From Rhytidiadelphus loreus (Eukaryota > Streptophyta > Bryopsida > Hypnales > Hylocomiaceae): a stretch of DNA of 64,000 nt. The notes under the pieces were generated by a model. That model saw nothing but the letters and a program-made list of their open reading frames with translations. It was not told the DNA's origin and ran no database searches. A program made the translations under genes and the position numbers. This document shows, one piece after another, positions 9,162-46,463 of this stretch. Where the stretch lies: NCBI GenBank assembly GCA_947034895.1, contig OX344762.1, positions 22,300,760 through 22,364,759 of the forward strand, read 5' to 3'. Positions within the stretch are counted from its first letter, which is position 1. Each line of letters starts with the position of its first letter.

Positions 9162-9240
9162 CAGGGTTGTCATACCGGACGGACGTCCGGTTCGCCCGTC
9201 CGATAGAGGTCTCGCCCGTCCGATGTGGTCAACACTAAAG
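9162..9240 (+). repeat. left terminal inverted repeat and subterminal repeats of the outer hAT
   Basis: CAGGGTTGTCATACCGGAC followed by CGTCCG/CGGACG repeats ('ggacggacgtccgg', two 'cgcccgtccgat'). Mirrored at 46395-46463. Subterminal repeats of this kind are usual transposase binding sites in hAT elements. Confidence 0.85.
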
Positions 9241-10200
9241 TTGACTTTTTTTAACCCTTAAAGGACCGTCACTATGTTTTCACCAAAAACTCTCTAAAAC
9301 TGTCATTTCTAGTACAACTACCAAAATTTTGATTAAAAACATTTTTTGACATATCTAACCGTAGGATGTTGTATTATATAGTATCAAAAACTTGTGGTAA
9401 AAATTTCAGACATTTCCACCGGGTGGATTGCAAGATATAAGCATTCAAAATTTCAAATTAACTAAAATCATTTTTTTGACCCTGCGAAAAGCAGGGCAGC
9501 TGCACTTCACAAGCTCACATTTCTATGAAAAAATGACCTAAATGGTGGTGCTTCTTTGGATTTGTTTTCCTAGACAAGTTGGCCACATGCTTGAAAAATT
9601 TCAGATCATTTGGAATAGTACAACATATAGGAAAAAAATAGTAAGTAGGTAGTACTAGAGAATGATTAAAAATACTAAATTATTTACAAATTAAATATGG
9701 AATTGAAAATTTACAATTCCAATGGTCGAAATGTTGTAATAATGTATGTACATCCTATAATTTTATTTTTGTCCAAAAATATTGAAAATTGGATAAGATA
9801 AAGGATGTCAAAGTTTATTTTAGAGCAAGAAATCCAAAACTGCCCGCAAACAGAAAATCCTCATAATCCTCATAATTTTTTACTCATTGATCAAAACCGA
9901 ATGATTCTAAGCTTTTTGCCTTTTTCTGTATATCAAACTCTAAAAAATCAATTTCAAATCTAATTAGTTGTTTGCTACTTTGTTTACTACACATTCACAA
10001 ATTCACAGAAGTCATACAACTGTCTTGATGGAAGAAAGACCAAATTGCATATTACAAGATTTTCACCATATGTCCGTATCTTTATGTATGAAATGTGTAG
10101 CAACCATGAAATATACATGCTTGATGCTCTTCTAACCAAAAATGTGTGGTCTGCCTATAAAACTATCACATACTAGAGCTCAAAAAGTAAAAACAATATA
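9241..10200. other. AT-rich arm with a partial TTAA-MITE relative
   Basis: From 9251 'ttaacccttaaaggaccg' and 'taaccgtaggatgttgta' match the 637-1364 family, but the right end is not recognisable. The rest is AT-rich 3' flanking sequence of the kinase gene. No gene seen. Confidence 0.5.
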
Positions 10201-11781
10201 TTATGTCCGATAACAACAGTCGGGCATAGTCCAACAGTGAGGTGCCTTCCTCAAAGTGTCTAGAACATCAGACACAGATGCCCTCTCGCCTACATCTATT
10301 TTCTGGAGGCTCAGTAGTTGAATCCTCAAATGCTGATATTGCTCTGGGTTTTTGGTCGTAAAATACTTTGGATCCCACTCTTCTTTCCAAATTTGATATG
10401 CTATCCATCCAGTTGCATATGCATCAGCAGCCATGGAGTAGAAGTGTTTTTTCTGCATGACTTCAAGTGAGGTCGCTGACCCCTTCTCTCCATACATGTA
10501 GAACAACTCAGGGGCTGCATGTTTTCGTTGTTTTTTCTCCCGTTGGAGCTCCTCCATGGTTCGATAACCATACCTTGATGGCTCCTTCTCTACAACTCGA
10601 CCAGAAAGCCCCCAATCGCAAATCCCAATGTACACTGTGTTTTCTTTCCATTCATCAAAATGGAGCAAAACGTTGGATGGAGTAATGTCATTGTGTAAAT
10701 ATTTTGCTTCATGGCATTTTCCCACTATGACAAGCAATGATAAAGCCAAATTCACGCGGTTTCGGCAATAAGTTGCAACCCAACCGAGTTCTTCCTGCGT
10801 CAACCCTACATCATGTTGTCTCGTGATGTCATCCACATCCAACGATTCACTCACTTTTGAGTTGTACTTGGCCAAGAAAGAAATCAAAGACCCTCCATTC
10901 CACCATAGCATATAGCCTTCCATTGTTTTTGGATGGATGTACGCAAGTCTTACGACACCAGGATGTATCACTGGACACCCCCCCGCCTCGCTTACAATAG
11001 CTTGGCGCTTCTCCTTCTCATTTGAGGTCTTCAAAGTCTTCCCGGCGAAGCAAATCCAACTGGGAATGCTTTGTAGTCTCGTGAGCACCACCTTCCTCAC
11101 AGTCCCATATGATCCAGTCATAGTTTGATTCGGCATGGGATTCACTTTCACGCAACTTTCCAACCACTTGAATGTTCCGCTCACACAATGAGCTCGTATT
11201 TGGTCTTCAAGCGTCGCTTTCCATGGTGCTTGTTTCTTTCTACGCGAGGAAGAAAATTATTGGGAGAACTTCTGAATTTGGTACAATCTTGAACCAAATT
11301 CCTTGTCATGCGTGTCCCAATCACTACCATCATCTTTCTTCTTTGTGTGATAACACCAATTCGCCACAATATTGGTGGTAAGCTGCGACACTTGTTTATC
11401 CAACCACTCAGAGTGCAACCAATAATCTTGATAGTTGTTGAATCGTTCGGATGCTCTAAATTTGGTCTCCAACTCTCGCCACACTTCAACATTCAACTTG
11501 TGGTACCCTTCTTCGTTGAAATTCACGTATTCTCTGTACATCATTCCCACACTTTGTCGTGTGTAAAAATTGACCGCTATTGCTCTAGCCTCGAGCACAT
11601 ATTCGTGAGGGGGCATGTCAGGATTGGGTTGTTTTTTACGCTTCGACCTGCTGGATGATGAGGGATTGGATGACCCTGAAGCCCCTGACACATTCGTGGC
11701 TGGAGGCACCACCTCAAAAATTGCATCCAAGTCTTCAAACACCGAGCGGTGACCCGATGACCCACTCCCTTGTCCTGCCAT
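10201..11781 (-). pseudogene. HND-type protein kinase, hAT cargo, one stop codon
   Basis: A single minus-strand frame of 527 codons from ATG (11779-11781, MAGQG) to 10201, broken only by TAA at 11257-11259, which fits CAA to TAA. The N-terminal ~170 residues form an unrecognised domain (FEDLDAIFEV..., a basic KRKKQ stretch, then HSEWLDKQV) shared with the inner kinase at 28601. The rest is a divergent kinase: glycine loop GSYGTVRKV, lysine in CFAGKTLK, catalytic loop LHNDITPSNVLLHF (HRD as HND, with catalytic D and N kept), CDWG in place of DFG, and APELFYMYG. Key catalytic residues are present, so it was probably active. It is transcribed divergently from the WCHI/RING gene across a shared array. 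Target unknown. Confidence 0.85.
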
Positions 11782-11939
11782 TGTACGATATTTTGGAACC
11801 ACCAAAGTTTCGGAGAAAATAAAAAAAACCGGGTGCTATATGTGGGCCAAGCCCAATCACCCACCAAACTCACTTCCAAGGGTCGCTTGCGCAAACAAAG
11901 GTGTGAGGCGTAGGGCGTGGACTTGGCAAAGGAAAAATG

Positions 11940-12180
11940 AGGGAGCACATGGGATTTATAGTCCCCGCCCCTCCCACGTCCGCGCCCTGGCCCGACACGT
12001 CCCCGCCCTGGCCCGAGCCGTCCCCGCCCCAGCCCGACACGTCCCCGCCCTGATCCGAGCCGTCCCCGCCCTGGCTCGTACACGTCCCCGCTCTGGTTCG
12101 GAAACGTCCCCGCCCTGACAGGCAGATTTGAGGACTATAAAAGTCCGTCCCCGCCCCATTAGTCCCCGCCCTGCGTATTC
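11940..12180. promoter_or_regulatory. bidirectional promoter with CGTCCCCGCCCTG array
   Basis: About nine copies of a ~21-bp unit (cgtccccgccctggcccgag and variants such as cccgacacgtccccgccctg) lie between the divergent kinase and WCHI/RING genes. At each side is the same TATA motif: GGACTATAAA facing left (reverse complement of 'tttatagtcc', 11954-11963) and GGACTATAAAAG facing right (12131-12142). The start codons lie about 170 and 130 bases beyond. The array is GC-rich and CpG-dense, unlike the AT-rich surroundings. The same unit recurs only in this element's other arm. Confidence 0.75.
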
Positions 12181-12266: not shown

Positions 12267-14633
12267 ATGGCGACACCACCAAGAACCAACAAAGTTGAAT
12301 GAGACAGGACTCGACTAAGGCAGGGTAACAAACATCGGAAGAGGTTACATGTACTTCGAAACCCCGAAAAACTGGCATTTAGGGGCTGGAATGACGTGCC
12401 AGAACCGTGGAGTTTCGAAACTTGCATCACTTACATAGAATGGTGCCACATTGACAAGGCCTTCCCTGAAGAGCGACACAACTACCACCGCCGATTTCAT
12501 AAAGCAAATTTGAAACACTTCATCGATGAGGCCTTTAAACAAAGATGCATCGAAGTATACCAAGTGTTATACGAAAAACCCACTGTGAAAAGGAATGAAA
12601 TTCACCTTTTCATTGCACGAGGTGTACATGCGGAGGTGAGATTGAACAAGCGGGTGGATTGGTCCACTTTGAAGGGCACGCCAACCACAGCAGATGGTAT
12701 CAAGATACCAACACCAGCAAATGGAATGATTCCAAGGGGGGTTATAAGATATCCCGAAGAAGGGCTGGGTAGGGTCAACACACGTATTGAGCCGCCTGAC
12801 ACATACGAGACGGCGGATTCTACTACTGACGATGACTCTGATGGATCTCATGTTGTGGTGGAATTAACCCCCAGAGGACAACAACGTGCACAAAGGAGAA
12901 GGGCGCAACGTGCACCTCGTGAACAACTTCCAGAACCAAATATTCGTGTACAGGTCCAGGGCCCCGTTGAACCAGTACTTGGAGTTGCTCAGGCGCAATT
13001 CCAAGCACCTGATGAACCAACTCTTGGAGTTGTTGATGTCATGGCTGCTGCAGACACCGTACAAAGCTTGAGGGTGCAGTTACAAGACCGAGGTGATGAA
13101 CTACATTCTCTATATGAAGATGTGGGCAAGTTACGAGAAGACATCACGCTCAAAGACAGAGTAATTGCTCAACAAGCACGTGACATAGAGGAGCTTCGGC
13201 AAGCTCTACAAGCAGCACAAATGATGAACGAAGGTCAAGATCCACGAGGACATGCACAAGGACCTCCTCGGGATTCTCAAATTCTGAGGCAAAATGCTCC
13301 AAGTGATGCTGCCATGTCTACACAAGAAGATTCATTGGCCTTTCCCGAAATAATTGCCACCAGCAATGTACCAATGCAGACTGAAGTTCGGGGCATGGGT
13401 ATGGACAACAACCTTGAGCTCAACAACTTGCGAGGCGAAAATCAAACATTACAAAATCGTTTGCATGCCTTGGTGGAGCAGTACTACCAGTGGAAGTTGG
13501 CATGCGTGTTCACCGTTGACAAGACACGACAACTGGTAGCAGAGTTCAAGAAATTGGACCACTACTACAGTGAGCACAATCAAGAAAGGGTGTTTGGCTT
13601 GACTTCATGGGCCCTTGTGGATGATCTTTTCAGTCCCAACATGGCAATCATTGAGCTTGATGGTGGAAAAACAATCATTGATTGGTCCAAACACAATTGG
13701 GATTTCAAAAACCAACTTGGGTTGAAGGTCGACTACAAAGGCAACCCGTTGTTGGAGTGGCCAAATCCTTCAAGTTTTGTGCACGACGGGACCACATGTT
13801 CCATTTGTATGAATCCATTTGGCCCTAAAGGTGGAATGCAGTTGGGCACGTGCAACCATGTATACCACCCATTTTGCCTCATCAGTTTCATGATTGTTCG
13901 TCGTCAGTGCGCAATGTACAAGGCTCCCTTCCACGAGCGCTTGTACGAGTTGTTTGGCTTGGTCCCATACATGCCACCACATTGGGAATACAATGCCACG
14001 AATGCCCCAGATCACCGTAGAATGTGGGGAACAGACTTGGTGTGGAGTTGGAAATTACAAATGACATCGTTGGACAAGACACAAGTCGCTGCTGAATGTG
14101 GTTGGGAGACTGACCCCGATCAAATTGTCCAAGTCTGCCACCATTTGATTCTGATGAAAGACAAGCATAGCCAAGGACGGCGGAATTTTTTCTTTCAATG
14201 CTTCAATGGACATTGGGACGAGGTTGGACTCAAGTTTCAATTTGGACCTCACCCTCGGCGATGGTTATGGGGCGTTGATGGAGTTCGAGTCACCGATGAC
14301 AATGGAATTCGTATTGGGGAGGACCCTGACATGCCCGACCCCGCGAAGCTTGCTCAATTATCGGAATCTGAGTGGAGGGAAACTTTCAGAAATGAAGGGC
14401 TGGATTTTTTGCTTGAACAACATAGCCCGGATACACGCCGAGCTCTGGAGAGTCTCAAGCAATCACAAATCATGAGGGCCATTCTAAAAGAAGACGGACC
14501 AGCGAGGAGAACTCGGTCTGTGGTTCGTAGACTTCAACTAGGCTCCAACGAAGATTTTCCAATGCAACGCGGCGCACACGACGACGAGGCTGGACCTAGT
14601 GGCACTGCAAACAGTCCAATGAACATCGACTGA
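12267..14633 (+). pseudogene. WCHI-domain/coiled-coil/RING protein, hAT cargo, one stop codon
   Basis: A 789-codon frame starting at ATG 12267 (MATPP), interrupted only at codon 12 by TGA (12300-12302; CGA to TGA). A re-start downstream of the stop is possible. Order: basic N-terminus; conserved 'WCHI' domain (GWNDVPEPW, YIEWCHIDKAFP, RCIEVYQVLY, VDWSTLKG); acidic linker; coiled coil around codons 270-340; a second conserved region (GLTSWALVDDLF); and a RING-type finger from about codon 511 (CSIC...CNHVYHPFC...CAMY). The last zinc ligand is Tyr where the inner homologue (35967-38474) has Cys, again a G-to-A change. The C-terminal domain continues (FFFQCFNGHWDEVG). Presumably a ubiquitin-ligase-like element protein; the partner is unknown. 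Confidence 0.85.
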
Positions 14634-16100: not shown

Positions 16101-16243
16101 TTTGAAATTTTGGGGGGAGGTGCAAGTAGTAATGGAGGTGAACCAAAAAGAAATCCAATTGCTTATTTTATTTTTCACACAAAAGAAAGCCACATCAAAG
16201 TATCAAATAAGTGAAACAACTTGAAGTCGAATTCCATCTTGAC

Positions 16244-16800
16244 CAGGGTTGTCTTGTCTGACATATTTTTGGGTTTAGGCGTCGTGTATGACGTCTGACG
16301 TCGCGTGTCGCGTGTCACGAAGTGTCGAGTTTACTTGACATCGCGTCGCGGAGGGGTAAAAATTTTTACCCCATGGTAAATAGATTTTGCCTACGTGGCA
16401 GGGCTTCGGAACTGACGTGGACAGCCAGCATGGGCGACTGCGGGTGTGGGCGCGTGCAGGTCTGCCTTGGGCGACCTCGGGTGGAAAAATTGAAGCGACT
16501 ACGGGTGAAGGGGCGACTGCGGGTCTGGGGCGCTAGGGCAACTTCGGGTGAAGGGGTGACCTCGGGTGGAAAAAATAGAGGCGACTGCGGGTTTAGGCTT
16601 GAAGGCGACTGTGGGTGAGTGGGCGACTGCGGGTCAGGGGCTTTAGGGCGACTTCGGGTGAAGGGGCGACCGTGGCTTCGGGTACTGAGGGCGACCGTGG
16701 GTCCGACAGGTAGAGGCGACTGCGGGTTATAGGGCGACTGCGGGTCGGAGCAGCAGACAGCGACCGCGTGTTCTAGGGCGACCGCAGGTTCAGTTTAGGA
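16244..16800. repeat. left end and subterminal GCGACTGCGGGT array of the inner hAT
   Basis: Terminal CAGGGTTGT, then GTCGCG/GACGTC-rich DNA (16278-16350), then about 15 units of GGCGACTGCGGGT and variants to about 16795. The right end (38795-39155) shows the same order in reverse. This array has no gene of its own on its left, so it is probably a true terminal (binding-site) array rather than a promoter. Confidence 0.8.
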
Positions 16801-17316
16801 TTTCAGTTTGGCATATTCAGTCTTTGAAGTAACACGTCACATAGGTGTTTTATAAGCGCAGAATTAGGTGCTACGTTATATTGGGGTTTACAATTTACAA
16901 GTGCAAATAATAGAGCCCATGAAATGTAAATTGGACAAACTTCTCTAATCCCAAAAATTCACCCAGTATAAGGCCACAATAATAATGTCAACAACGATTA
17001 TATTAATAAGTCATCGATATTGCTTTCAAGCGGACTTCAAATGTAGCCATACTTGCATTGCACTTTTATAACCTCGTTGCAGTCATCACCTAACTGCCTA
17101 CCAATTAGAACTCAACATATATTTTAAAACCGGTAATCTGTCCCTCACTCTAATATGCTCATATGCTTGATGAAGCATTACAAAATCCTTACACATTAGG
17201 ATGAAGGCTCAAAGCTTGAACTACAAAGATTTGCTACCTAACATATAAGCTAAAACCTTATAACTATAATTATAACTATAACTATAATTATAATTATTGT
17301 TTACTTCTCTAGTACT
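16801..17316. other. 3' flank of the inner transposase gene
   Basis: AT-rich; a (TATAATTATAAC)-type microsatellite lies at about 17258-17299. No gene seen. Confidence 0.5.
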
Positions 17317-20300
17317 CTAGTCACCAGGCGTGAATGTGGAATCGCTCGGCACCTCATCAGCATTAGGGTCTGTATCTTCGTAAGACTCTTCGTTGCTCCT
17401 GTTGTCGCCCGAGCTTTCGATTTCATCATCTTCCCTTGTTACTACTTCGATTTGTACCTCACGCTCTACCTCTGAGTTCAGATTTCGAACTTCTGTATCT
17501 ACACCACTGAACCCTTCAGTTTGCACAAGTCGTTTCGTGAGCCTCAACGTATCCGTAGTTCCATCCATGTTGGATGCAGGGTGTCGCCCTCCTCTACTTG
17601 ATTGTCCAACATTCTAGGTGGAACATCCCGCTCCAATGGTACACCGTTGGACAATTTGAGTGGGTCGTTTAGGGTTTCGAGGTCCCCTCTCGTCAACCCT
17701 CCTAATACGCCTTTTCTGGCCTCTACTGTTGCGCCCCTGGATTCCTAATGATGATTCGCCAGGGCCAGACACGGATGAAGGTTGAGTGGGTTGTGGAGCT
17801 GAGCTGTGAACCTCTTCATCAATCGTCCGTAGAGCACCTCCACGCACCAGTGGCCTTGTTGGAAGGGTTGGGATAGACCTCCTCACTGTTGCCACATTTG
17901 TAGTCGTCTCTGGATTCAACGGCACATTCCGACTTCGATTCATAACATATGCCAATGGCACATCATCATCATCATCTGTAGTAATAGTTGTTCCGAGGGT
18001 AGATGCGTTCAATACAACGGGATTTGGTATTCCCTCGTGTACAACTTCATTGACTTCGATGGCCTCTTCTTCATGTTCGCTTCTCATTGGAACTTGTGCA
18101 CTGCTTCTTAAATTGCGGGCCATATTTGGAGGCGAACTAGTTGATATTGCAGATCTAGCTTCTTCCTCTACGGGTGCCATGGGAATAGGTACGCCTTTGT
18201 CGTTGTTGTCGGGGGTGCTTTCCCTCCTCAGTGATGCATGTGCCGGCGAAATTGCATCCATATTGTGCACGACGTTCTGTGGTGGACTGCGTACAGGTGA
18301 ATTTCCAAGAGAAACATACCCATCGTCACTAAAATCAAATGTATTCCCGTATATTGGTCGTGGAGGACTATGTGGCGGCCTAACCATTGCATTCCAAGGA
18401 TTGTTGCGCAACCGATCCTCTTCATCCCTGCGGTTCTCGCGTTCTCTCATAAAATCTGGAACAACGTCGTCTTCTTCCCCTGAAGACAAAGGCCCATCAC
18501 GCTCGTCCTCATCGTCTCCATCTGCAAGCATCTGGTCGTAAAAAATGGTTGGGTTGTGTCCATGTTTTGACGTTCAAGTTTGCTGTTCGCGTAGATATAC
18601 ACCAATGTCTCCGCCTTTGTCGTGGCCAAGCGGTTTCGCACTTTATTGTGCACAAAGGAATACATGCTCCAATTCCTTTCACACGAAGATGCAGAGCACG
18701 TCAAACCGAGAATTCACTTTGCAATTTTTGGAAGAGCATTGCCCCCTACACGATTCCACCATTGATGAGGCAATAATTGACATTCAATGATATCGGGAGC
18801 CTCATGTAAAGGATCAAATGCACCTGTCTTCTCTTCAAATTGAGTTAGCTCCTGCATTGCTTCCACCACTGACACGTTCAATGGTACACTCAGTTTTCGT
18901 ATGACTCGATTCAAAGCTCCCTTCGCGTAGCCATTGTTATGAATAGCCTCCACGTCACTCAAGTATGGATTTAGTAGTGCCCCCGCATAGTGTAGGTCAG
19001 TAATCATCAACTTCCAGCGAGCATCAAATTGTTTCTCATATCGTGTTGCCACCACTGGATCAAGGAAAAATGGAGCATTCTTGAGAGAATAAATGTGCTC
19101 CTTCAAGGCTGTCATCATTACTAAAGCTTTCGGCATTGCCGGGACTTTTCCATCAAAATGACGAAGACAAAGCAGCACGGGCTCTACCATATAGAGGAAA
19201 TTGTCGCACTGAATCCAGAACTCTTCTGAACGGATATCTTGCCTTGCAAGTTTGGCCTTGCCCATAATGAAATGTCCATTTCTGCGGTTTTGCAAACTCA
19301 ACTCGAACGTCATGTATGTCTCATCCAGTGTCACGTTGTGCATTGCTTGCTTGCAGTCTACCAAACGATCAATCATCAAGAAATTTGTGGCAAAACGTGT
19401 TTTGCTTGGAAGTCTCAACACTTTGTTTGGTGAAAATCTCCGAAACAACGCCAAAGTATGTTGGTATTTCTTGATGAACTTCACAATTGATGAAGCCTTT
19501 TTTACCAACTCCTTTACTCTCTGATCCTTTCCCCAGTCTTCTAAGAGTAAGTCCAAAATGTGTGCCGCACAACCCTGCCTATAAATGTGAGGGTACCTTT
19601 CTTCCAACCTTGCCATCGCCCCCGTCATGACTGCAGCATTGTCCGTACACAATTGCACAACGTTGGTAGGCCCAACTTCCTCAATGTATCGTGCCATCGT
19701 CTCAGTCGTGTAAGATATATCCTTCTTCTCCCCAGTACTATCCACTGATCCCAAAAAGACATCCCCGGCGGGACACACCAACATCATATTTAGTAACGAC
19801 CGCGAATTAGTATCGGACCAACCATCTGAACAAATTGTCGCTCCATACTGACTTATTGAAACCCTCGTCCGCTCCGAGACCATGGCTTCAACCGATGCCT
19901 TCTTAACATCTATCATTTTCGTGCGAATCGCATTATACGGTGGCGGTTGGTACACGAATCCAGCTGCTGCAGTTTGTTTAACAGCATTCACGAAGGCCGG
20001 GTGGCGCACAACATTAAATGAAATGTTCGCCTCGTAAAAGAAAGAAGCCCACAACCTATCCAACTCTTGTCTGCGGCCCGTCTGTAATGATTCATCCATG
20101 CTTCTTTGCCGAGAAACAGATGGCATGTTCCTCCTTCTCTCAAGCGTTGTTCCAGTAGAATCTACTGAATCAGGAGTAGGATTTGGTCTTGCATTTGATT
20201 CAAAGGGATTGAGAGACCCTTCTTCTTCGACATCCAACGCAGGTGCGACAATAGACTTTGCAACATGAATTGGTGCATCATGTCTAGTCGGTGCATCATA

Positions 20301-20591
20301 CATCTCTTCGTAACTCATGGACCTTGGAACTTGCTCCTCGCCAGTTCGAAACTTTTCTCGTACAATTCTAGGGATCTCCTTACAACGCTCCGATGTAGTC
20401 GAGCCGCCATAGCCAAAGTGAATCAATGCTCTCTTTCGTACAAATGCTTTGCTCCACCCACAAAACACGCATTTTCGAGCATGGGGGGAATTATCAATTG
20501 GGGTACACGGTACTAGCCAAGGGTCCCAATCCTTTGTGGACCTCCGCGTATCATTCATGGTCCCCCCCCTCCCAACACCTTGTCCAGCCAT
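17317..20591 (-). pseudogene. hAT transposase of the inner element
   Basis: Start chosen at MAGQG (ATG 20589-20591). BED-type zinc finger C41-x2-C44, H58, C70; transposase core with D256 (CSDGWSD), D317 (LCTDNAA) and the CxxH motif at 341-344; hAT C-terminal dimerisation block SCERNWSMYSFVHNKVRNRL. Breaks: in-frame TGA at 18711-18713 just before the hATC block (CGA to TGA), a one-base shift near 18545-18565 in a T run, and TAG at 17614-17616. The C-terminal tail (17317-18531) is long, acidic and low complexity, as in the outer transposase (42042-45524), to which it is clearly homologous. It would cut and paste the element from the nucleus if intact. Confidence 0.9.
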
Positions 20592-20814
20592 GTAGTAGAT
20601 CAACACTGGGTCTTCAAAGAAAATGACTACAATAATCACACTAATACTATGGAAGATGTAATGACAAAGCAACCCGCTTAGAGTGGTCTTGTAAACCCTT
20701 CTAAACACGGTTGTTGCCCTTCGAAGAAGTTAAACGTCCGCATGAAGCCTCTTTCGAAGGTCCAAGACAAGAGTTTTATGAACGGAGCCAAGGTGATAAA
20801 ACAAGGGGTACCCC

Positions 20815-21050
20815 TAGAACTTTATACAAGAAAACTCCTTGGACCCGCGGTCGCCCCATGAGAGAATGCGGGTCCAAAAACCTGAAATCAGTTAGGTGAT
20901 GGGCGACAGCGGGTCCAGAAGTGGGCGCCACGGGTCTAGTAATGGGCGACTGCGGGTCCAGAAACAGGCGACTGCGGGTCCAGTAATGGGCGACTGCGGG
21001 TCCAAAAACAAGCGACTGCAGGTCCAGGAACGGGCGACTGCCATTTGTTT
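20815..21050. promoter_or_regulatory. array promoter of the inner transposase gene
   Basis: About eight units of GGGCGACTGCGGGTCCAG-type sequence (20868-21045). On the transposase's strand they read ggacccgcagtcgccc, the sense orientation shared by all genes of this element. A TATA-like 'cttgtataaagttc' lies on the minus strand at about 20818-20831. Confidence 0.65.
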
Positions 21051-21520
21051 GGATAATTCTTGCATTCCCTGGGGGTAATTTGGGGCCTATAAATGAAACT
21101 ATGAATTCAAAATTTCCACTAAAGAAATAAGCCTTGAAAATAAAAAATTCTAGTGTTTGCCCTGGAGTGGCAATGAGTAGGTCAATTCACCCTAGCCGTG
21201 ACAATTGCTTTGAACTTCAATAACAAGTTCTTTTCCAATCCGGCAAGTTTTTAATTTTCCTTTTTTTTTTAATTCTCTTTTAATTCCGAAAATCCTAACT
21301 CCCAAGGTCATTTTCCTGCCAAAATTCCTAGAATATTCAAGTTTTCACAACATTGCAAACATAAATAACCAAAAATTCATATCTATATTTATGTACTCTT
21401 GTCAAGGAACTACATAGAATTCAATGTGCTTGCATTGGAATGTTCAAAATGGATAATATCCTTTTATATATACATAAGATGGAATATACATAGTCCTCAA
21501 AAATGTGCTAAAAATGAAAA
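21051..21520. other. intergenic, 3' side of the 21521-23124 gene
   Basis: AT-rich, no gene or array. Confidence 0.5.
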
Positions 21521-26970: not shown

Positions 26971-26984
26971 CGGGTATGGGCATG

Positions 26985-28560: not shown

Positions 28561-28600
28561 GAATTTTGAACTACGGTTTTGAATTGTTTTTAAGTACAAC

Positions 28601-32625: not shown

Positions 32626-32803
32626 TTGCATGGCTCATTTTATTCACGCTTGGATGACATAGGGTGTTTCACGAGAACATTGTATTTTTGTAAATGTTAA
32701 ATGTGATAGGATTACGTTTAGCATTTTTTACACCTACGGTTTAGGCTTGCAACCCTAAACCGCATAGTACTTAGTTGGCTACTTTTGAGACGAAGTGATC
32801 GTT

Positions 32804-34294
32804 ATGGAGGGCGAGGACTCTCAACCGCCACACGGTATGTCAAGATACCGACTTCGGCTCAACAAAAAGGCGGTTCGTGACAAGGATCGTAAAAGGAGCG
32901 GCAAACCTCGCAAGAAGCGTGTACCCATCTTGTTGCATCCAAAGATGAAGGCCTTTTTGGGATGGGAAGTAGAACCAGAGCCTTGGACATATGAAACTGT
33001 AAACAAATATGTGGATTGGTGCCACATCAACAAGTTGTTCCCGTTTTGGCGACACCCTTTGCACGTGAAGTCTAATAAGGCAAATTTGGCTTACTGCAAG
33101 AGTGTTGTCTTCCAGCGAAGGTGTTTGGAGGTATGGCAGCAACTCTATTTGGAGTCCCAGCCTTATCGAAATGACAACTTCTCTTTCTATCTTGTGCAAA
33201 TGGTGTACGTTGAAGTTCAATTGAAGAAAAAGGTAGATTGGACAACCTTGAAGGAGCTTCCTATCGGTGACCGCCCGGACAGACCGATAGTGCTGGATGA
33301 AGAAGGACTTCTTCAAGCAAATTAGAAGCTTTTAGAGGCAAAGCCTGGCAAGTTGGCTGTTGGTGATGACCAAGTTCAATGGTCTTCAACTTCTAGCTCA
33401 GATGAGCACACTCATGAATACGATGGATATTCTTTTGAGAGTGACGACGAAGACATTGGCAAAGAAAAACAAGAGGCGGCTGAAGACGTTCAAGTTGACA
33501 AGAAGGGCAAGAGGAAGCTTGAGGAGCCGCAATCATTGTCCAAGATTCAAAAACAAAGCGAAGATGTTCATGTACCGATCAATGTGGACTGTTCTGGTGC
33601 AGACATTGGGTCTAGCGGAAGTAGTGACAATGATTCGGAAGACAATTTAGAGATGTTGGGCACTAAGATCGAAAGTGCACGAGCAGCTTTGATTTCAACA
33701 GTAGCGGATCTTATGAATTTGAAAGAGAAGGTACAACATCTTCCAGTGAATCCAACTGTTGTGGATGGGTTGAAGAAGGAGTTAGAGGCGACTGAAAACG
33801 CCATTGCTGAAAATGAGAAGATTTACTCTAAGTTAAACAAAAGTAGAGTAAATTATTTCAAGAAGATCGAAGACGGGCGAGCACACATTTCCGATGATTT
33901 AGCGGTGCTTCAAAATAAACTTGATCTTTTGCAACGTGATAAATGGTCCCATCAAAGCGAAAGGAGAAGCTTGAATCTTCAAATACGTGAGCTAGAGATG
34001 GAATATTATGATGATGCCTTAAAAGAAGCCAAAAAAGAGGGCATCTTGGCTTTAGCTCCGGATTATGGTAGCAATACAGAAGAAAGAGCAACGCTTTTTT
34101 ATTTGGTGAAGCTACTGGAGAAAAAACAAGAGTTGTTGCACGAGGGCATATTGGACTTGGAGCGCCACATCCTTTATTTTAAGGAATGGCGCAAGTGGGC
34201 CTATGAAGGCATAGGTGCCACCCGTGCGGAACTTCAAAGAATGAGACCGGAGCCCAAAGAAAGTGACTTTGTGAATAGTGAAAAAAATGCTTAG
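32804..34294 (+). pseudogene. WCHI-domain/coiled-coil protein, one stop codon
   Basis: One frame from ATG 32804 (MEGEDSQPP) to 34294, 497 codons, interrupted by TAG at 33323-33325 (CAG to TAG). First part: basic stretch, then the WCHI domain (GWEVEPEPW, YVDWCHINKLFP, RCLEVWQQLY, VDWTTLKE). Second part: acidic linker (SSTSSSDEH, SFESDDED), a basic KKGKRKL, then a largely helical, coiled-coil region (LNLQIRELEMEYYDDALKEA) to the end. No RING. Same layout as 21521-23124. Broken by a single substitution, so recently functional. Function unknown; a shared N-terminal domain suggests the WCHI proteins act in the same process. Confidence 0.8.
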
Positions 34295-35966
34295 TGGTTG
34301 GATCTAGTGTGGTAGAAAAAAACAATTTGGCCTTCCAATTTTTGATTTTCCAAAGGTTTTGTGGAATAAAGAAATTCACACCTTTGTTTTTGAAATGTAC
34401 ATATGTTTTTATTATATTTTGAATACGAGGGCTATGAATTTGGTGTCTTTGCAAGAATGGATGTCAGAGATGGTACCTACGGGCTGAAATTTGGGACTGA
34501 ATTTTTGAAACTTTATTTGAAGATAGAAAAAACGATTACCTTTGTGGTAATATAACTTTTTTTCCAATCGGTGCCCGGGAACAAAAGTTATGCCCATATA
34601 GTCCAAACTCCAAAGCAGGGGAGAATGGGCAGCAAAAAAATGTGACAAGCATTTGAATTTATTTTTCTAAGTTTTTTTCCCTCATAGATTATAATTTTGT
34701 CTATCCGGAAAGCTTTTTTTCATTTCATTTGGATATTTTATGAGAAAGTTATGGACAATCTTGTTTATTGGGCAATTAGAGCTTCTGGTGGGAAAAATAC
34801 CTTGTAAGATTAATTTAGGAACGCAATTTTGGCAATTGTTCAAGAAAAGAAGTTTGACATGGTTTAGTTTGCTTGCAACAACAATTTGACTGTGGGGATT
34901 AGTGCATTTTAATTCTATCTTAGAAAGAAAATAGATTTTCATTCAATCTCATATGTACTTCTATTCTACAAGTTTTTTAAGAATGAAAATTAAGTTTTTT
35001 TGAAAACCTTTTTTTTATTTAGACTCTCAACTCAATTCTCCACTATATTTGTTTAAAGCTCAAAACTCTGTAGTGCAAGAAATTAAAGTGAAAAATGTTA
35101 AAAGTCAAATAATGTAGTCCAGCAATGTGCTGAAAAAATTGTTTTTTTCACTCTAAATGCGGATATCTTGCAATTTGTAAGATGAAAAATTCTGAAATTT
35201 TTTCCACACATTCTCATACTAGTAAGGTGTAAGATCCTATGGTTATGTGTGGGAAAAAAACAATTTTCAAAAACAATTTTGGATACTTTAAGAAATTGTT
35301 GAGTAGAAGTAGGTAAGATGTAGTTGTAAAATTTAAATAATGAATATCTCTAAAATGAAATGAAAATGGTGAGAGTGTGCTATCAAGTGAAGTTAACTAT
35401 GTGACCGGACCTAATTTTTTTTTAGATTGTAGAAATTGCCTGGAGAAACAAATCCTACAAGCAACTTTTAAAAGAAGAAGTTGTAGACTCAAGTTGCCCG
35501 CCAAACAAAATGGTCCATAACTTTCTCATAAAAAATATGAATGGAATGAATCAAATTTTTCCATGTAAACAAAAACATGTTGTATGAGAAAAAAATCCAA
35601 AAGGAAAAAATTCATTAAAAGATTTGAAGATAGCAATTTTGTGGGGACCGTGTATGGAATCATTGTGTGAGGCATTACAACAAATGTATTTGCATTTCAC
35701 CAATTACATTTTAGGCTACAAATGTATAAGTATGCCCAAACCTTCAAAACCAAAGCAATAGAAGGTTGTTGTCCATAAGCATAGTAGTACAATACACAGC
35801 CAAGGCGGTATAGTTTTAGAAGCCAACATCTTAACCCTAACTTTTGCTAGAGTACTACATTGTGCGAGTATGGATATACTACAGCCCTTATACTATGGGC
35901 CTTACATCTTGTATACTACTACGATTAACTAGAACCACCGTTGAAGTAAGTATCTCATAGAAATAT
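34295..35966. other. intergenic with degraded TTAA-MITE copies
   Basis: About 34480-35240 matches the 637-1364 family in reverse ('ccaatcggtgcccgggaacaaaagttatg', 'gtgtaagatcctatggtta'). 35283-35480 matches part of it in direct orientation ('aagaaattgttgagtagaagtagg'). Neither has intact ends. No gene. Confidence 0.55.
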
Positions 35967-38474
35967 TTAGTTCAAGTCCATTGGATTGTTCTGAGAACCA
36001 CTCGTTGCACCTTGTTCGTAATCATTGGACTCTCCAACAACGAGTTTCTTCTTAGCACGAGTCCTTGAAGCAGGTCCATCTGCTTGTAAAATAGATTCCA
36101 AGACATTGGAGTTCTTGAGAGCTTCAAGTGTCCTTTTAGTTTGCGGAGAGTGTAACTCCAATAGATAATCGAGTGCTTGGCTTTGATAATAAGGCCCGTA
36201 TGTTGAGTCGAGGTAAGCCATACTATTCAAGTCTTCTGGAGTGGCATTTTCATCACGATTAGCCCCTTGTTCACCTTCAAAATTCCAACGGTGTCCTTCC
36301 GGATGAGCACCCCACTTGAAGGTTTGGGATGTCTTATCAAAATATCCACCAAGGCATTGAAAAAAAAACGCCCTCTTCCCTGCATTGTGAGCTCCTTTTC
36401 CCATAAGGTTGAATGCCACTCTTAGAATTTCACGTGGGTCCGTTTCCCAATTCAATTGTGAGGCAGCAGCTCCCATTTCTTGATCATGTAGGCCTTCTCG
36501 CCAACTCCAAAGCAAGTCTCGTCCCCAAAATCGTGTCTCTGCCGTCGTGTCTCTATTGTGTTCCCAAGAAGGTGGCATGTAAGTCATCAAGTTGAACATG
36601 GTATACAAGCGATCATGGAATGGTGCTGCACAAATCACACATCGTCGTCTAATCAGACATTGAGTGATGAGACACTGAGGATGGTACACATGTGTACATG
36701 ATCCAAGTGCCCATCCTCCTTCTGGCCCAAATTGTTCTAGACATATGGGGCATTTGGTATGATCCAAGACGAAATGAGCTGGCTTTGGCCACAATAGACT
36801 TTGGTCTTTTTCGTTGAAGTGACTAGACATCTGATTTCCATGGTCCCAACCATTTTGTGCCCAGTCTATGACATTTTTTTCCGCCACGTCAAGCATGGAC
36901 ATGTTATCCGGAAACATGTCCTCCATCAATGCCCATGATGTCAATCCATTCTCTCGTTTAGGGGCATTTGCTACAAAGTTCTTCGAAACTTTGTCTAGCT
37001 CTTTCGCAACTTGTTGAGATCGATCCACGGAGAGAATGCACGCGACCTTCCAATGATAGTATGTCGCTGCCAACACTGCCAACTTCTCTCGAAGCATTCT
37101 ATTTTCCTCAGCCAAATCAAGTTCCTTTGATGATTGTAGATGTGGAATGGCAGGAAACGAAAGTGAATCCTGAGTCCCTTGCAAACCATCAACGTGCGGA
37201 TTGCTAGAATCTCTTGAAACGAACGGAAGTGGTGCCATTGGAAGAATTGAAGAACGCTTCGTACGCTTGGCAGGGGGAGAAAGGTGAATGACATCGCTGG
37301 TGAGGTCCCCAACAAGCTTGTCCAAGTGATGTGGATCCTGCTCAACAAAGGTTTCGTCCATGTCCGACAATGTGAAAGTCTGACGCTCTTTTTCTCGAAG
37401 GCCTTGTAATTCTTTGGATTGTTGAGAAATGAGAGCATTTTTTTGTTCACATGTAGACCGCCATTTCTTCACATCACCTTCTAAGGTTGCAATTTGTGCA
37501 TCCTTGGTCTTCAAGAGGTCGAGAGCCTTCGCCAACGTCATCGCATTGTGAACAACATCAGATTCAGACTGTGGAATGGGAATGTGACTTCTGGCACATA
37601 CGGGCGAGTCGTCACTTAAAGCAAAGTCGAAGACGTTGCTGGCGTCTTGTGGTGGCAAGATTGGAGTCGCAATTGTGGTTGAGGCTGATGCCAATCTAAT
37701 TTTCGTGGTGGACCGTCGCACCTTGGCAGGATGTTTCATCTTCTTTCCCTGCGATGATGAAGCGGCTTGAACATTTGGATCTGGAACTGGAACTGGAACT
37801 GGAACTTGGACGGGGGTGATAATCTGCTCCTTCACTCGTACAAGCTTAGGAATCCGTGTGCCATCTGAATCATTATCCTCTTCTGATTCTTCCGTGTCCA
37901 CCTCTTGAGTTTCTTTGTTTTGTGGATCACTTCGAAAAGGCCCAAGTCCACCCTCCGGAAATTTGAGAACCCCTCTTGGAATTATTCCAACTTCTAGACG
38001 CTCCACGTAGGTACTTTCTTTGATCGTGGTCCAGTCAACTTGTTTGTTCAAGGCGACCTCAGCATAGGCACCTCTAGCAATGAACAAAGGGGCCTCATTC
38101 CTATCTACAAAAGGGGTTTTGTAGAGGACCTGCCACAATTCTAAACACCTTCGTATGAAAGCTGGATTTTCACAATACTTCAAATTTGCCTTGTTATTGT
38201 GTCGGTTGTGATGATGGCGCCATGCCGGAAAGAACTTCCCGATGTGACACCATTCAATGTAGTCTTCGCACACCTGCATACTCCTAGGCTCTGGCTCCTC
38301 GTTCCACCCTTTGAAAGCTAGGTGGTTATCATTGTTCAACACATGCCATCGCTTCTTGTGAATGTTACCCCTCCTTTTTCTAGTCTTATCTTTGGCAGCC
38401 TTCCTAATTGCACCAGGAGTGCGTACAGTGGAAAAACCCGGAAGGGACCCATCACTGCTACCTCCAGTTGCCAT
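35967..38474 (-). CDS. intact WCHI-domain/coiled-coil/RING-H2 protein (835 aa)
   Basis: Complete minus-strand frame, ATG 38472-38474 to stop at 35967, the only fully open cargo gene. Order: basic N-terminus (KDKTRKRRGNIHKKRWH); WCHI domain at about residues 55-165 (GWNEEPEPRS, YIEWCHIGKFFPAWRHH, RCLELWQVLY, VDWTTIKE); acidic linker with NDSDGT; basic KKMKHPAKVRR; coiled coil around 315-375; conserved GLTSWALMEDMF; RING-H2 at about 575-620 with C-x2-C, C-T-H-V-Y-H, C and C-V-I-C all present; conserved C-terminal domain (KRAFFFQCLGGYFD). It is the homologue of 12267-14633 in the outer element, which supports the predicted start. Likely a nuclear E3-ubiquitin-ligase-like protein of the transposon (inference). 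Confidence 0.88.
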   Translation of the reverse strand: MATGGSSDGSLPGFSTVRTPGAIRKAAKDKTRKRRGNIHKKRWHVLNNDNHLAFKGWNEEPEPRSMQVCEDYIEWCHIGKFFPAWRHHHNRHNNKANLKYCENPAFIRRCLELWQVLYKTPFVDRNEAPLFIARGAYAEVALNKQVDWTTIKESTYVERLEVGIIPRGVLKFPEGGLGPFRSDPQNKETQEVDTEESEEDNDSDGTRIPKLVRVKEQIITPVQVPVPVPVPDPNVQAASSSQGKKMKHPAKVRRSTTKIRLASASTTIATPILPPQDASNVFDFALSDDSPVCARSHIPIPQSESDVVHNAMTLAKALDLLKTKDAQIATLEGDVKKWRSTCEQKNALISQQSKELQGLREKERQTFTLSDMDETFVEQDPHHLDKLVGDLTSDVIHLSPPAKRTKRSSILPMAPLPFVSRDSSNPHVDGLQGTQDSLSFPAIPHLQSSKELDLAEENRMLREKLAVLAATYYHWKVACILSVDRSQQVAKELDKVSKNFVANAPKRENGLTSWALMEDMFPDNMSMLDVAEKNVIDWAQNGWDHGNQMSSHFNEKDQSLLWPKPAHFVLDHTKCPICLEQFGPEGGWALGSCTHVYHPQCLITQCLIRRRCVICAAPFHDRLYTMFNLMTYMPPSWEHNRDTTAETRFWGRDLLWSWREGLHDQEMGAAASQLNWETDPREILRVAFNLMGKGAHNAGKRAFFFQCLGGYFDKTSQTFKWGAHPEGHRWNFEGEQGANRDENATPEDLNSMAYLDSTYGPYYQSQALDYLLELHSPQTKRTLEALKNSNVLESILQADGPASRTRAKKKLVVGESNDYEQGATSGSQNNPMDLN

Positions 38475-38635
38475 GAGATTTGCGGACGTCGCAAAATTCT
38501 AAGAACCAAATGATAGCAAAAAATAGTATATATATTATCCAAAAGGGTCACGCATGCAGCCAACAAAGGTTGCAAGACAGAAAGCCTCAATGGAAAATGA
38601 AGGTGATAGCATGATGATGGGCTACTGCCTATATT

Positions 38636-38790
38636 GGGCGAGTGACTTCGGTCTAGGGGGGCGAGTACGGATAGGGCAACTGCGTATCCCGCGACTGCGG
38701 GTTTGGGTAGGGCGACAGCGGGTCTCGAGAGGGCGACAGCGGGTCCAAATTGGGCGACTTCGGGTCCACCACCGGGTCTAGGTACCTTTT
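38636..38790 (-). promoter_or_regulatory. array upstream of the WCHI/RING gene
   Basis: GGGCGACAGCGGGTC and GGGCGACTTCGGGTC units on the plus strand, i.e. sense ACCCGCTGTCGCCC toward the gene starting at 38474. It abuts the oppositely oriented terminal array at about 38790. Confidence 0.65.
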
Positions 38791-38794
38791 GCGC

Positions 38795-39155
38795 ACCCGC
38801 GGTCGCCCACCCAAGAACACTTCCTGAACCCGCGGTCTCCCTGCCAAACCCGCAGTCGCCCACCCGCGGTCTCCCTCAGAAATCCGCAGTCGTCCATCCG
38901 CAATCGCCCTCGCCCACCCGTAGTCGCCCTCTTCCACCCGCAGTCGCCCACTCGCAGTCGCCCCTACCCACAGTCTCCTACCCGTACGCGCCCTCCAGTT
39001 TGCCAAGTGGATGCCATGTGGCATCCACCTGGAGGGGGGTAATTTCCTGTAAAGTCAAAGGTAAATTTGACTTTTCGTAACGTCGCGCGGGCTCTACTAG
39101 ACGTCGCGCGACGTCTGTCTGTCGCGGTGTCGCGCTGTCGCAGCGAACAACCCTG
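38795..39155. repeat. right end and subterminal array of the inner hAT
   Basis: ACCCGCGGTCGCCC/ACCCGCAGTCGCCC units to about 39000, the short palindrome 'ggatgccatgtggcatcc' (39010-39027), GTCGCG-rich DNA (39080-39143) and the terminal ACAACCCTG (39147-39155), followed by ATCTTGAC. A mirror image of 16244-16800. Confidence 0.85.
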
Positions 39156-39163
39156 ATCTTGAC

Positions 39164-41675: not shown

Positions 41676-41795
41676 CGTCCGGGAACGCGTCGCGCTAGGG
41701 CGTGGACGCGTTGGAATTGTGTAACGTCCGCGCCCCTAACGTCCCTGCCCCTGCAGAAGAGGTCCGCGCCCCTGCACTCCCAGGCTATAAAGCCA
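41676..41795 (+). promoter_or_regulatory. outer-type array and TATA box of the outer transposase gene
   Basis: 'gggcgtggacgcg', 'acgtccgcgcccctaacgtccctgcccctg' and 'ggtccgcgcccctgc' are CGTCCCCGCCCTG-like units, followed by GGCTATAAAGCC (41783-41794), about 250 bases ahead of the start codon at 42042. Confidence 0.65.
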
Positions 41796-42041: not shown

Positions 42042-45000
42042 ATGGGAAGTCAATGAAAGCAAACAAAAGAATGGGAACCGTGGTATAATTTCTCTGAGAA
42101 CGGGGGGAAAGTGAGTTGTGTATTTGGCAATGCAACATTCACCTATAAACGCGAGCGCACTTTTGCTCACTTTGGATATGGCGCGAAGTCCGAGAGGTCA
42201 ATTTGTCGTAATGCAACGTGAGCCGTGCGCCACCGATTTGCAAATTGTGCAAACTTTGTTCCTCAACGATTGAGCCCCGAAGACATGTATGAAGGAGAAT
42301 CAATTCCCACTGGTCCATCAAGAGCAACTCCAGTTGCAAGTTCAAGCCAATCCTTTCAAAACGAAGTGATGGGAGGGGGTTCATGTGACGCCCAAGCTGA
42401 AGGGGTTACTCTCCCTGAAGGGAATGATGCAATACAGAGGTCCCAAAGTCTCGCTGCATCAAATTCCACAAGATCTGGGTCATTACTTCAGCAACGTATG
42501 AAGGATGCTTTTAATGTTACGAAGAGGAAGGAGTTGGATGACAAGTGGGCATCATTTTTTTACGAGGCGAACGTGCCATTTAATGTGGCAAGAAATCCAG
42601 CCTTTATTGAGGCAGTGAGGGCAACCTCAATGGCAAGGTTTGAATACAGTCCACCTTCTTACCATCAGTTCAGGACGAAATTGATTGAACCGAAGAGGTT
42701 GCAGATCGAGAAGCAAATTGAAACCAAAGTTGGTTTTGCAGTGAAACATTATGGGGTGACAATATGCACTGATGGCTGGGATGACGTGAACCGGAGGCCT
42801 CTAATGAATGTAATGATGTCGTGCCCTACCGGTGATGTATTTTTGGGGGCCATTGACACCACCGGGCAAAAGAAGTCCATGCGCTACATAGCGGACCAGA
42901 TGAAGGTATTCATTGAGAAAGTGGGTTCAAAGTACGTGATATAGGTTTGTACGGATAATGCAGCGAATATGCTTGGAGCATTGGATGATATCGTTCGCAC
43001 GTATCCACACATTTTCAAGCAGGGGTGCATGGCACATGCTTTGGATCTCATGTTGGAAGATTGGGCCAAAGTACCAGAATTCAAAGATTTAATTCAGAGG
43101 GCAAGAAGATTGTGCCAATACATTCAGAACCATCACGCGACCATGTCGGTATTCCGGGAGTTGAGTCCGACCCTTCAGTTAGTAGTGCCCAGCGAAACCC
43201 GCTTTGCTTGTAATTTTCTCATGTTGCAGCGATTGGAGAAACTTCGCAGAGTACTGCTGCGGTGAAAAGACTATGCGCGCGTTCAAAATTACTTTGATGG
43301 TCTGCGAGACAGACAAAATGCGGAGCAAGCAGCTACAACTTCACGTAATGTGGTGTCAACTATCGAAGACATGGGCTTCTGGCAACGATGTGCAAATTAC
43401 GTGCACATGACTGAAGACATGTTAAAGGCATTGCGCATATTTGATGGCCGAGAACCAGCTATGGGTCGGGCGTGACTCGTAATGCACAATTTGAGAGCAC
43501 ATGTGTTTTCTTTAAGAGGGCCACCCTTCAACCTACGAGATGACATAGCCACCACCATGGAGGAGTCTTTCACATCCAGGTGGGACATGGTGTTCACGGA
43601 TGTTCACTATGCTGGGGCCCTTCTAAATCCGTATCTCTTGGATAACGTGGCACTTAGGGTTGATGGAGTTGCACTCCGTGCATTGTATCGAGTCATCCGC
43701 AAAATGGAAAATGTAGTGGATGTGGAGTTTAACAACGTATTGGCGGAATTAACAGAATTCGAGGAGGGCACGGGGCCATACAGTGCAGCAGAGACACCTG
43801 ACATCCGAGCGACACAGATGCTTCTTCACCAGTGGTGGCACAGGGTTGGAGATCGAGCACTATCTAAGATTGCCGTTCGTATCTTGTCATTGACGTGTTC
43901 AACATGTTCATGTGAAAGGAATTGGAGTATGTATTCCTTCGTCCACAACAAGGTCCGGAATCGGTTAGCCCCCGAGAAGGCTGAGTCATTGGTATATATT
44001 TATACCAATAGCCGTGTACTTCAGCAAAGACCAGGGGCCGATCCTGTTCGTTGGTATGATGCTAATATCCTCTCGGAGTATTCTGATCCAGATGCCCTTG
44101 GCCCCGTTCCAGTGGCTGAACGCAATCGTGAATTTGACGCAATGGTAGCTGAGGAAGAAGAAGAGGCTGATGTGGAAGCTAACCGAGCACCCCGAGAATA
44201 CCGACCAAATCCAGAGTTGTGGAGGGCGGGGGCTGATCACCTTGCAGAAGCTAGAAATTACTACGGAGATGGTCATGAAGTGGAAGAGGAAGTCCTCCCT
44301 GGTCGCTGGGGCCCTTGGGGAGCCGATCCTCGCCGAAGTCCTACACCCATTGGCGATGAAAATGTAGTTGTTTCTGAAGTGCAACCTTTGTCATCGTCTT
44401 CCGAGAGTGATCACCCGGCCACAGTGGACGCCGATGATGATAATGTTATCTCGAACAATGACGACAACCTCCCTTTGGAAAACGAAGGGAGAAATGGAAA
44501 TGGTAGTGAGAATCTGAGGAACAATGCAACTCAGAATACTGAAGGATCCGTTTGTGATCGTGATGGCAATAGGGGGCCCAGAGGAGTGGGGGGCCGCGAT
44601 AGCAACAGAGTTGTTGGAGGACGCCATGGCCAAAACATTGGAAATACAAGGATGGCACGACCGATTACAAGACATGTTGTGGAGGTTAATGCAGTGGGAA
44701 GAACGCGTTTTGACCCTGAACATTTAGATCACAATGATGTTTTTGCGTTTACTGACCCGCTTGAAGACGAAGCCCATATACCACCACCAGTTGCAGTGCA
44801 TACTATTATTTCTAACCCTTCATCTCCCGCAACTTCGAGTGCTCCTTGTCGACCTTCCGAAGAAGTGCTAGGCTCAGTGGGAAATGTTGCAATGACGACT
44901 CAAAGCATTTTAAATGTTACAACGGGTGGTAGACACCGTACCGCCTTTCAACCCGCAATTCACTACACTATGGGTGAATATCAACAAGGACGTGGAAGGA

Positions 45001-45524
45001 GTTTCGTCCGTGGAAGAGCAAGAGGTCATGCAACGATTGGAGGCCGTGATATTAGAGGTGGACGAAACAATAACGAAGCGTTGTCATCGAGGCCCCCTAA
45101 ACGCCCTCTTCTAGGAATTGGGGTCCGAGACCCGAACGTGGTGATAGAGCCATTTTTGAATACGTATGTCCCAGGACCAACTTTGTCCACTCCAGCGTAT
45201 GTCGTTCCTCGAGTACAAGGAGGCCCCATTATAAATTTTGACGTGGAGGACCCTAGAGCTCAACGGCACAAGAAGTTTAAACGTAGTCGTAGGCATGGTC
45301 AAACAGCTATGGAGCTTCGAAATGAGAACTCGGAAGTGAAAAACCAGTGGACCACAGACAGTGACGATGGAGAAGATGAATGTGGAACTAGTGAAGTTGG
45401 TGATGATGAAGACGACCCTGATTGTGATGAGGCACCAGCAGATGATGATGTGGTCATTCGAGATGTTGCATTATCAAATCCGGGTACACAAGAAGTTCGC
45501 AAATCAAGTCGTTTCAACAATTGA
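42042..45524 (+). pseudogene. hAT transposase of the outer element, five stop codons and no frameshift
   Basis: A single 1161-codon frame from ATG 42042 to 45524. Stops: TGA 42054-42056, TGA 42219-42221, TAG 42942-42944, TGA 43263-43265, TGA 43473-43475; each is one C-to-T change from CGA or CAG, and where the inner homologue aligns at 42942 it has Gln. Domains: BED-like finger (KEWEPW, CVFG, HFGYG, C) with one finger Cys apparently missing (CVFG for CVFC); RNase-H core with CTDGWDD and VCTDNAA; CxxH (CMAH); hATC block SCERNWSMYSFVHNKVRNRL; and a ~500-residue acidic, low-complexity tail with an RGRGR-type segment. It would have mobilised the 37-kb element. Confidence 0.92.
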
Positions 45525-46300
45525 GGGGCACCTGACAGCATCTGTGTTCTGTAGACCTTCATTCATCATGAGTTCAAGACAGTTGCACTAATTGAAACAT
45601 GAAGTAATGAAGATCTACAAGAAGAAGAAGGAGAATCTTAGATAACCAGTAGAAGAGGAGGTGTATCTTGAGAGCAGTATATTCATTGTGTTGTGAACTT
45701 GTTATTGTACTGAATAACGCTTGAAATATAAAAATGTTTTTGGTTATCTAAAATAAAAAAGTTTCCAATTGTGTTTGTAGAATTATCACATTTGCCATGC
45801 ATGAAGATGACATTCATGAGTGTAGTTATATTGTATAGTTTGAATGTTGTAAGTAAGGTGTACTAAATTTATTACTATCCTTGCATTCACGTAGAAAAAA
45901 ACATTCACTACTATCATCTTTGATGCCTTCCGAAGGGCTGAAAATTTGTTATTTAAACATGAAATTCTTTTCACAAAATGATCTCTTTGCTAATAACATG
46001 TGTGCTAAATTTCAAGGCCAGAAGATTTACACATAAAAAGATATTCACAATGTACCAACATGTGTACTTGTGTGGTTCAGAGAAACAATTTCAATGCTAC
46101 CAAGTACCAACTCCTAGAAATTGAGAAATCAAAATTCGGCCATGAATTTTTTGGCATGAGATCATGTCTATGTTGATAACATGTGGGTCAAATTTGAAGT
46201 TCAAAGGATTTGCCTATAAAAAGATACTGGAAATGTTTTTCACCCTATGAAAGCAAGAATTCGTAAATGAAGTACAAAAATTCTCCAAAAATTCGGATTA
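45525..46300. other. 3' flank of the outer transposase gene
   Basis: AT-rich. 'cttgaaatataaaaatgttttt' (45720) could be a polyadenylation region. No gene. Confidence 0.45.
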
Positions 46301-46304
46301 AACT

Positions 46305-46463
46305 GATGCGTCCCCGCCCTGTCCAAGACGTCCCCGCCGTGACGGAAACGTCCGCGCCCTGATTTCAGTGTTGGAAAATTTCAAAAATGAAAGGTGTCCG
46401 AAGCGTCCGAAGCGTCCGTTCGTCCCGTCCGATCACTCCGACCCGTCCGGTATGACAACCCTG
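46305..46463. repeat. right end of the outer hAT with both repeat types
   Basis: Three CGTCCCCGCCCTG-type units (46310-46362), then GTCCGAAGC/CGTCCG repeats (46395-46450), then the terminal inverted repeat ending ATGACAACCCTG at 46463 and the target duplication GCGTGGCC (46464-46471). Confidence 0.85.

Follow-up and report, generated by a model that had tools for sequence, protein, structure and literature searches.

Two nested, partly decayed hAT transposons of the moss Rhytidiadelphus loreus share a transposase, kinase and RING-type gene set that may form a regulon

Introduction

Canonical hAT transposons have been described with a single transposase gene encoding a product of ~600-800 residues, and binding of hAT transposases to their inverted and subterminal repeats, in which the N-terminal zinc finger participates, has been reported (PMC4890040). 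Accessory genes have nevertheless been published for DNA transposons, i.e., TET/JBP genes in fungal hAT7 elements and in other superfamilies and an alpha-kinase gene in IS3EU elements (PMC12730594), and giant KDZ, EnSpm and Sola-1 elements in Ectocarpus and other algae also carry additional genes, one giant element having a gene whose proposed role is to bind and modify the transposon that carries it (PMC12477816). A preliminary description of the locus treated here states that known autonomous hATs are usually small and single-gene. Here we describe two hAT elements, one nested inside the other, in a 64,000-nucleotide stretch of the moss Rhytidiadelphus loreus (GenBank assembly GCA_947034895.1, contig OX344762.1, positions 22,300,760 to 22,364,759 of the forward strand; hereafter the window, whose own numbering is used throughout).

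We read the outer element (9162..46463) and the inner element (16244..39155) as partly decayed members of one hAT lineage, with a shared gene set that is likely one regulon working through element-specific GC-rich repeats whose core is also present in the element ends; we would give this reading a little better than even odds (about 0.55). The element ends, the target duplications, an outer empty site, the homology of the genes, and the confinement and placement of the repeats are seen in the sequence; binding of an element protein to the repeats is inferred.

Results

Element ends and nesting

The outer element is bounded by a perfect 21-bp terminal inverted repeat, with its left copy at 9162..9182 (plus strand), after which come CGTCC words, and its right copy at 46443..46463 (minus strand). 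The flanking 8-mers, GTGTGGCC at 9154..9161 and GCGTGGCC at 46464..46471, agree at seven of eight bases. The inner element, 22.9 kb long, has a perfect 9-bp terminal inverted repeat (16244..16252, plus strand, and 39147..39155, minus strand, with GCGAC words inward of the latter) and lies between two copies of ATCTTGAC, at 16236..16243 and 39156..39163, which are identical at all eight bases. Both elements thus have the short inverted repeats and the 8-bp target duplication of hAT transposons; canonical hAT inverted repeats are of the CAGGG type. The window holds ten pairs of CAGGGTTG with a downstream CAACCCTG, and only the outer and inner pairs have at least seven matching flank bases, an agreement reached by 117 of 200,000 random 8-mer pairs. 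CAGGGTTG itself occurs seven times in the window, with 2.3 occurrences expected.

When the outer flanks are joined with one copy of the duplication, the frame of a gene resembling those for calcium-dependent protein kinases (CDPK-like) stays open across the junction, so that the reconstructed empty site pins down where the outer element begins and ends. The rejoined stretch of 120 residues aligns over 119 residues without a gap to PDB chain 9vhu_A, calcium-dependent protein kinase 3 (E 1.9e-31), and matches PF00069 at E 3.2e-24. The gene interrupted by the outer insertion lies on the minus strand (window 46472-47100 plus 8400-9153), and because its frame shifts upstream of the junction in the joined sequence, it may be a pseudogene. 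Rejoining the inner flanks revealed no noteworthy coding frame, and the positions of the inner ends are therefore based on their inverted repeat and target duplication.

The preliminary description had proposed two separately bounded hAT elements and had called for an empty-site check. The two pairs of ends hold up, with inverted repeats of 21 and 9 bp, duplications of 7/8 and 8/8 and outer flanks that rejoin into the open CDPK-like frame. Its giant outer element of 37.3 kb keeps these ends but not its size, because 22.9 kb of that span belongs to the inner element, leaving ~14.4 kb of the outer element's own DNA. In the left flank, window 637-1364 is 74-79% identical to outer noncoding DNA (9251-9408 and 15344-16100) and is perhaps a relic of a related element.

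A gene set common to both elements

Each element encodes a DUF659/hAT-C transposase, a kinase with a PF00069 domain, and a WCHI/coiled-coil/RING protein, and the inner element adds another two WCHI genes. The genes are not arranged in the same order and orientation in the outer and inner elements. The outer transposase gene (42042..45524, plus strand) encodes DUF659 and hAT-C domains and a long tail, with five in-frame stops within its first 673 codons, and the inner one (17617..20591, minus strand) encodes the same two domains with one in-frame stop and one frame change. The hAT-C dimerisation domain PF05699 scores 37.6 bits in the outer transposase and 23.9 bits in the inner read-through, both above the cut-off of 21.4, and the two proteins are 42% identical over 656 codons (best BLASTP E 1e-52). 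Both conserve the stretches TxCxDGW, CTDNAA and CERNW, which are candidate sites of the hAT catalytic acidic triad. No Pfam match to the BED zinc finger was obtained in either transposase; by eye, the inner transposase has a CxxC and a later His that might form such an N-terminal finger, and the outer one lacks the second Cys.

The kinase genes lie at 10201..11781 (outer, minus strand, one in-frame stop) and 28601..30193 (inner, plus strand, three in-frame stops). Their products have in common an N-terminal part of ~180 residues, for which Pfam gave no match, followed by a kinase domain in which HND replaces the usual HRD. PF00069 scores 42.5 bits for the outer kinase and 46.6 bits for a piece of the inner one (cut-off 31.7), and a PDB search with the element kinases returned no match at E 0.001 or better. 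Identity between the two is 29% over 513 codons, with best BLASTP E values of 4e-34 and 4e-19.

WCHI, the label used in the preliminary description, refers to an N-terminal domain that spans ~170 residues and surrounds the motif EWCHI. The domain is common to the outer WCHI/coiled-coil/RING gene (12267..14633, plus strand, one in-frame stop near its start) and to three inner genes, where the preliminary description had counted a single one: the inner WCHI/coiled-coil/RING gene (35967..38477, minus strand), which has 836 codons without a stop and keeps all eight RING ligands; a WCHI/coiled-coil gene in two overlapping frames, i.e., with one frame change (21521..23124, minus strand); and a third WCHI gene with one in-frame stop downstream of the domain (32804..34294, plus strand). 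The WCHI domain had no Pfam match above the cut-off, and comparison of its predicted structure, which is confident and mostly helical (predicted template-modelling score 0.71), with the PDB and viral libraries gave no usable match. The first 165 residues of three WCHI proteins have a net charge of +9 to +11.

The outer and inner RING proteins are 40% identical over 736 codons (best BLASTP E 2e-103). All eight RING-H2 zinc ligands are Cys or His in 11 of 12 aligned proteins, two of which have Cys in place of the first His. Pfam RING matches of the element proteins fall just under the Pfam cut-offs, and the RING domain matches RNF24 in the PDB at E 1.8e-5.

Within the aligned stretches, in-frame stops number five (outer) and one (inner) in the transposases and one (outer) and three (inner) in the kinases, and the three RING frames have none, the stop of the outer RING gene sitting, as read by eye, just before its aligned stretch. 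Given the stops and frame changes in several genes, both element copies are, judging from their sequences, old. The third codon position is the least conserved in eight of eight comparisons (for instance, 0.54, 0.63 and 0.36 at the three positions for RING), as expected under selection on the protein. Because both elements carry the same three kinds of gene, the accessory genes probably have a function within the element.

A RING-type gene beside a transposon end in a second contig

The inner RING protein has at least 12 relatives at E 0.001 in the protein database, on contigs of 2.6-5.8 kb each, in a search that scored only the 7994 candidates with the most words in common. The best full-length relative among the matches listed is 66% identical across 98% of the query. 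A single locus, L001, came from one scan of prokaryote genome assemblies; it is a biocrust contig of 4906 bp, placed in a cyanobacterial bin and most simply explained as a eukaryotic contaminant. Its RING-type gene starts at ~1921 with a frame end at 4323, and CAACCCTG occurs ~500 bp onward, at 4822, with five CGTCC/GGACG words in the last 100 bp before the transposon end; by its sequence, then, this gene adjoins the same kind of transposon end as is found in the window elements. In a tree of 12 RING proteins, the outer protein and that of L001 fall on one side and the inner protein on the other, with weak support for the deep split (76/87). Two near-complementary stretches of ~28 bases, ~260 bp apart, were seen by eye in L001 1-300, ahead of the RING gene, and may mark a small element with inverted repeats.

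These results bear out two further claims of the preliminary description, that a transposase is encoded in each element and that their cargo is homologous. They also agree with its view that the gene set was inherited by the transposon lineage, given the homology across elements, the third-position pattern and the place of the L001 gene.

GC-rich repeats private to each element

All 48 window copies of a strict inner unit, GCGACNGCGGGT, fall within the inner element, and all 12 copies of a strict outer unit, CGTCCSCGCCC, fall in outer-only DNA. Looser words behave in the same way, with 15 of 15 outer-type words in outer-only DNA and 116 of 117 inner-type words in the inner element. L001 has seven strict outer-type units, six at 1548-1674 upstream of the RING start and one near the end, and no inner-type unit.

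The units are gathered in arrays. The outer array (11961..12171, plus strand) lies between the divergent kinase and RING genes and serves as the nearest motif for both, at 196 bp from the kinase start and 122 bp from the RING start. Outer-type words are also found upstream of the outer transposase gene (41725..41772, plus strand; one strict, two by a shorter pattern) and by the right end (46309..46362, plus strand). Between the inner insert and the outer transposase gene, window 40470-41017 holds a 226-bp tandem repeat of 2.4 copies at 97%. Inner arrays stand upstream of the transposase start (20843..21041), the WCHI/coiled-coil gene (23440..23624, plus strand), the kinase gene (27852..28391), the third WCHI gene (31946..32520) and the RING gene, where the array adjoins the right end (38691..38995); one more is by the left end rather than ahead of a gene (16432..16789, plus strand), and another has no directly adjoining gene (26438..26975). 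The nearest motif is 122-317 bp upstream of the start in eight of eight window genes, and 214-316 bp upstream in the five inner genes. When the eight inner clusters were placed at random in inner noncoding DNA, all five genes were served in 4 of 20,000 trials.

Subterminal repeats, as in hAT elements, are present at both ends of each element, and they differ by element. CGTCC occurs five times per 100 bp at each outer end and five times at the L001 end, and is absent from the inner ends; GCGAC occurs twice and six times at the two inner ends, and is absent from the outer and L001 ends (shuffle means 0.16-0.31). The CpG observed/expected ratio is high in the window arrays (0.86-1.10), the L001 array (1.36) and the inner ends (1.70 and 1.38), whereas it ranges from 0.63 to 0.83 in genes and only from 0.33 to 0.51 in the noncoding DNA of the elements.

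Other features of the right flank

To the right of the outer element, four adjacent minus-strand open reading frames of 185, 294, 273 and 263 aa (window 47408-50524) had no Pfam match and are perhaps one decayed long gene, and a 128-bp tandem repeat of 4.1 copies at 94% lies at 53277-53794.

Discussion

The preliminary description suggested that the cargo may manipulate host signalling or protein turnover; what the repeat pattern suggests in the first place is that the element regulates itself. In the mechanism that we propose, the N-terminus of the transposase or a WCHI protein would bind the repeat core at the ends for excision, and the same protein would bind the promoter arrays for cargo expression, so that transposition and cargo expression would stand under one switch and each element type would respond to its own code alone. 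The kinase and RING protein could then act, through phosphorylation and ubiquitin transfer, on element machinery or on host silencing or repair proteins. More tentatively, the WCHI domain may be a DNA-binding domain of a new kind, specific to transposons, which recognises a GC-rich word peculiar to each family in the ends and before the cargo genes, with transposase, kinase and RING protein making up a self-recognising regulon whose word diverges so that nested elements avoid activating each other.

Several observations weigh against a regulon of this kind. Three of the eight inner clusters (left end, transposase tail and 26.4 kb) and two of the four outer clusters (40.3 kb and right end) lie away from genes, and the outer transposase has a single strict motif upstream, at 317 bp. 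The best balanced inner end word, GACGT (four and five copies), is absent from the inner arrays, and the remaining looser inner-type word lies outside the elements, at 4821 in the GC-rich left flank. The gene starts are first ATGs chosen by us, and the pentamers were chosen after inspection. The outer RING copy has lost its last ligand, with Tyr in its place, and no complete intact copy was seen among the window elements and L001; the latter is the sole relative whose surrounding DNA was read, and its contig covers one end and one gene, the left end and any kinase or transposase gene lying beyond it.

A somewhat improbable account likewise assigns the gene set to the hAT lineage, but has the host as the sole target of the kinase and RING protein, the arrays being ordinary CpG-rich promoters unrelated to binding by transposase or WCHI proteins. 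Promoters are often high in GC and CpG, as the arrays are, kinase and RING domains are typical of regulators, and the inner clusters that are not at genes would fit as well. Yet each element has array units of its own, with pentamers that also occur in that element's ends, and the outer pattern recurs in L001. The differing gene order and orientation could instead mean that the kinase and WCHI-RING genes are a module passing between transposon families, acquired separately by the outer and inner elements, and TET/JBP genes have been described as moving passively from one transposon superfamily to another (PMC12730594). We consider this unlikely, since the transposase (42%) and RING (40%) identities are alike, as joint descent would predict, although that of the kinase is lower (29%). 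Least probable is the idea that the cargo consists of ordinary host genes caught by chance and now decaying as passengers; the stops in both kinases would fit it, but the presence in both elements of matching kinds of gene that are homologous, a third-position pattern of protein-level selection, the proximity of the L001 RING-type gene to a hAT end, and a WCHI domain and kinase N-terminal part without Pfam matches all speak against it.

A hAT lineage in which a kinase, a RING protein and a previously undescribed WCHI family were retained across deep divergence would show that such transposons are able to hold accessory modules like those of phages. The repeat common to ends and promoters offers a testable idea for how the mobility of a eukaryotic transposon could be coupled to cargo expression, and its element-specific forms offer one for insulation between related transposons.

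Among described systems, Ac, Tam3, Tol2 and Tgf2 resemble the window elements in their 8-bp duplications, short inverted repeats, subterminal repeats and DUF659/hAT-C transposase, and differ in being described with one transposase gene, where the window elements have three shared genes, WCHI paralogues and promoter arrays. In the CACTA (En/Spm) elements of plants, an element protein binds the end repeats and regulates the element promoter, with a transposase of another superfamily. The TET-bearing hAT7 and IS3EU elements of fungi are likewise DNA transposons with accessory genes and, in the alpha-kinase of IS3EU, a kinase among the cargo; hAT7 duplications, however, are 7 bp, and the genes are TET/JBP and alpha-kinase rather than the PF00069 kinase, RING and WCHI genes of the window (PMC12730594). 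Neither a TET/JBP dioxygenase nor an alpha-kinase was matched by Pfam in the 23 window open reading frames scanned of the 31 that have at least 150 aa. The giant KDZ, EnSpm and Sola-1 elements are similar in their large size, extra genes, nested insertions and, in one case, an accessory protein for which binding to the transposon that encodes it was proposed, and belong to other superfamilies with other genes (PMC12477816). ToxhAT/ToxTA of wheat-infecting fungi is a 14-kb cargo-carrying transposon first named hAT, but is now regarded as Tc1/Mariner-like with a 2-bp TA duplication (PMC12506042). The literature searched yielded no hAT lineage that combines a PF00069 kinase, a RING-type protein and several WCHI paralogues with promoter arrays matching its ends. 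Accessory-gene transposons as such are already published, and the new features of the window elements are this combination of genes and the element-private repeats in promoters and ends.

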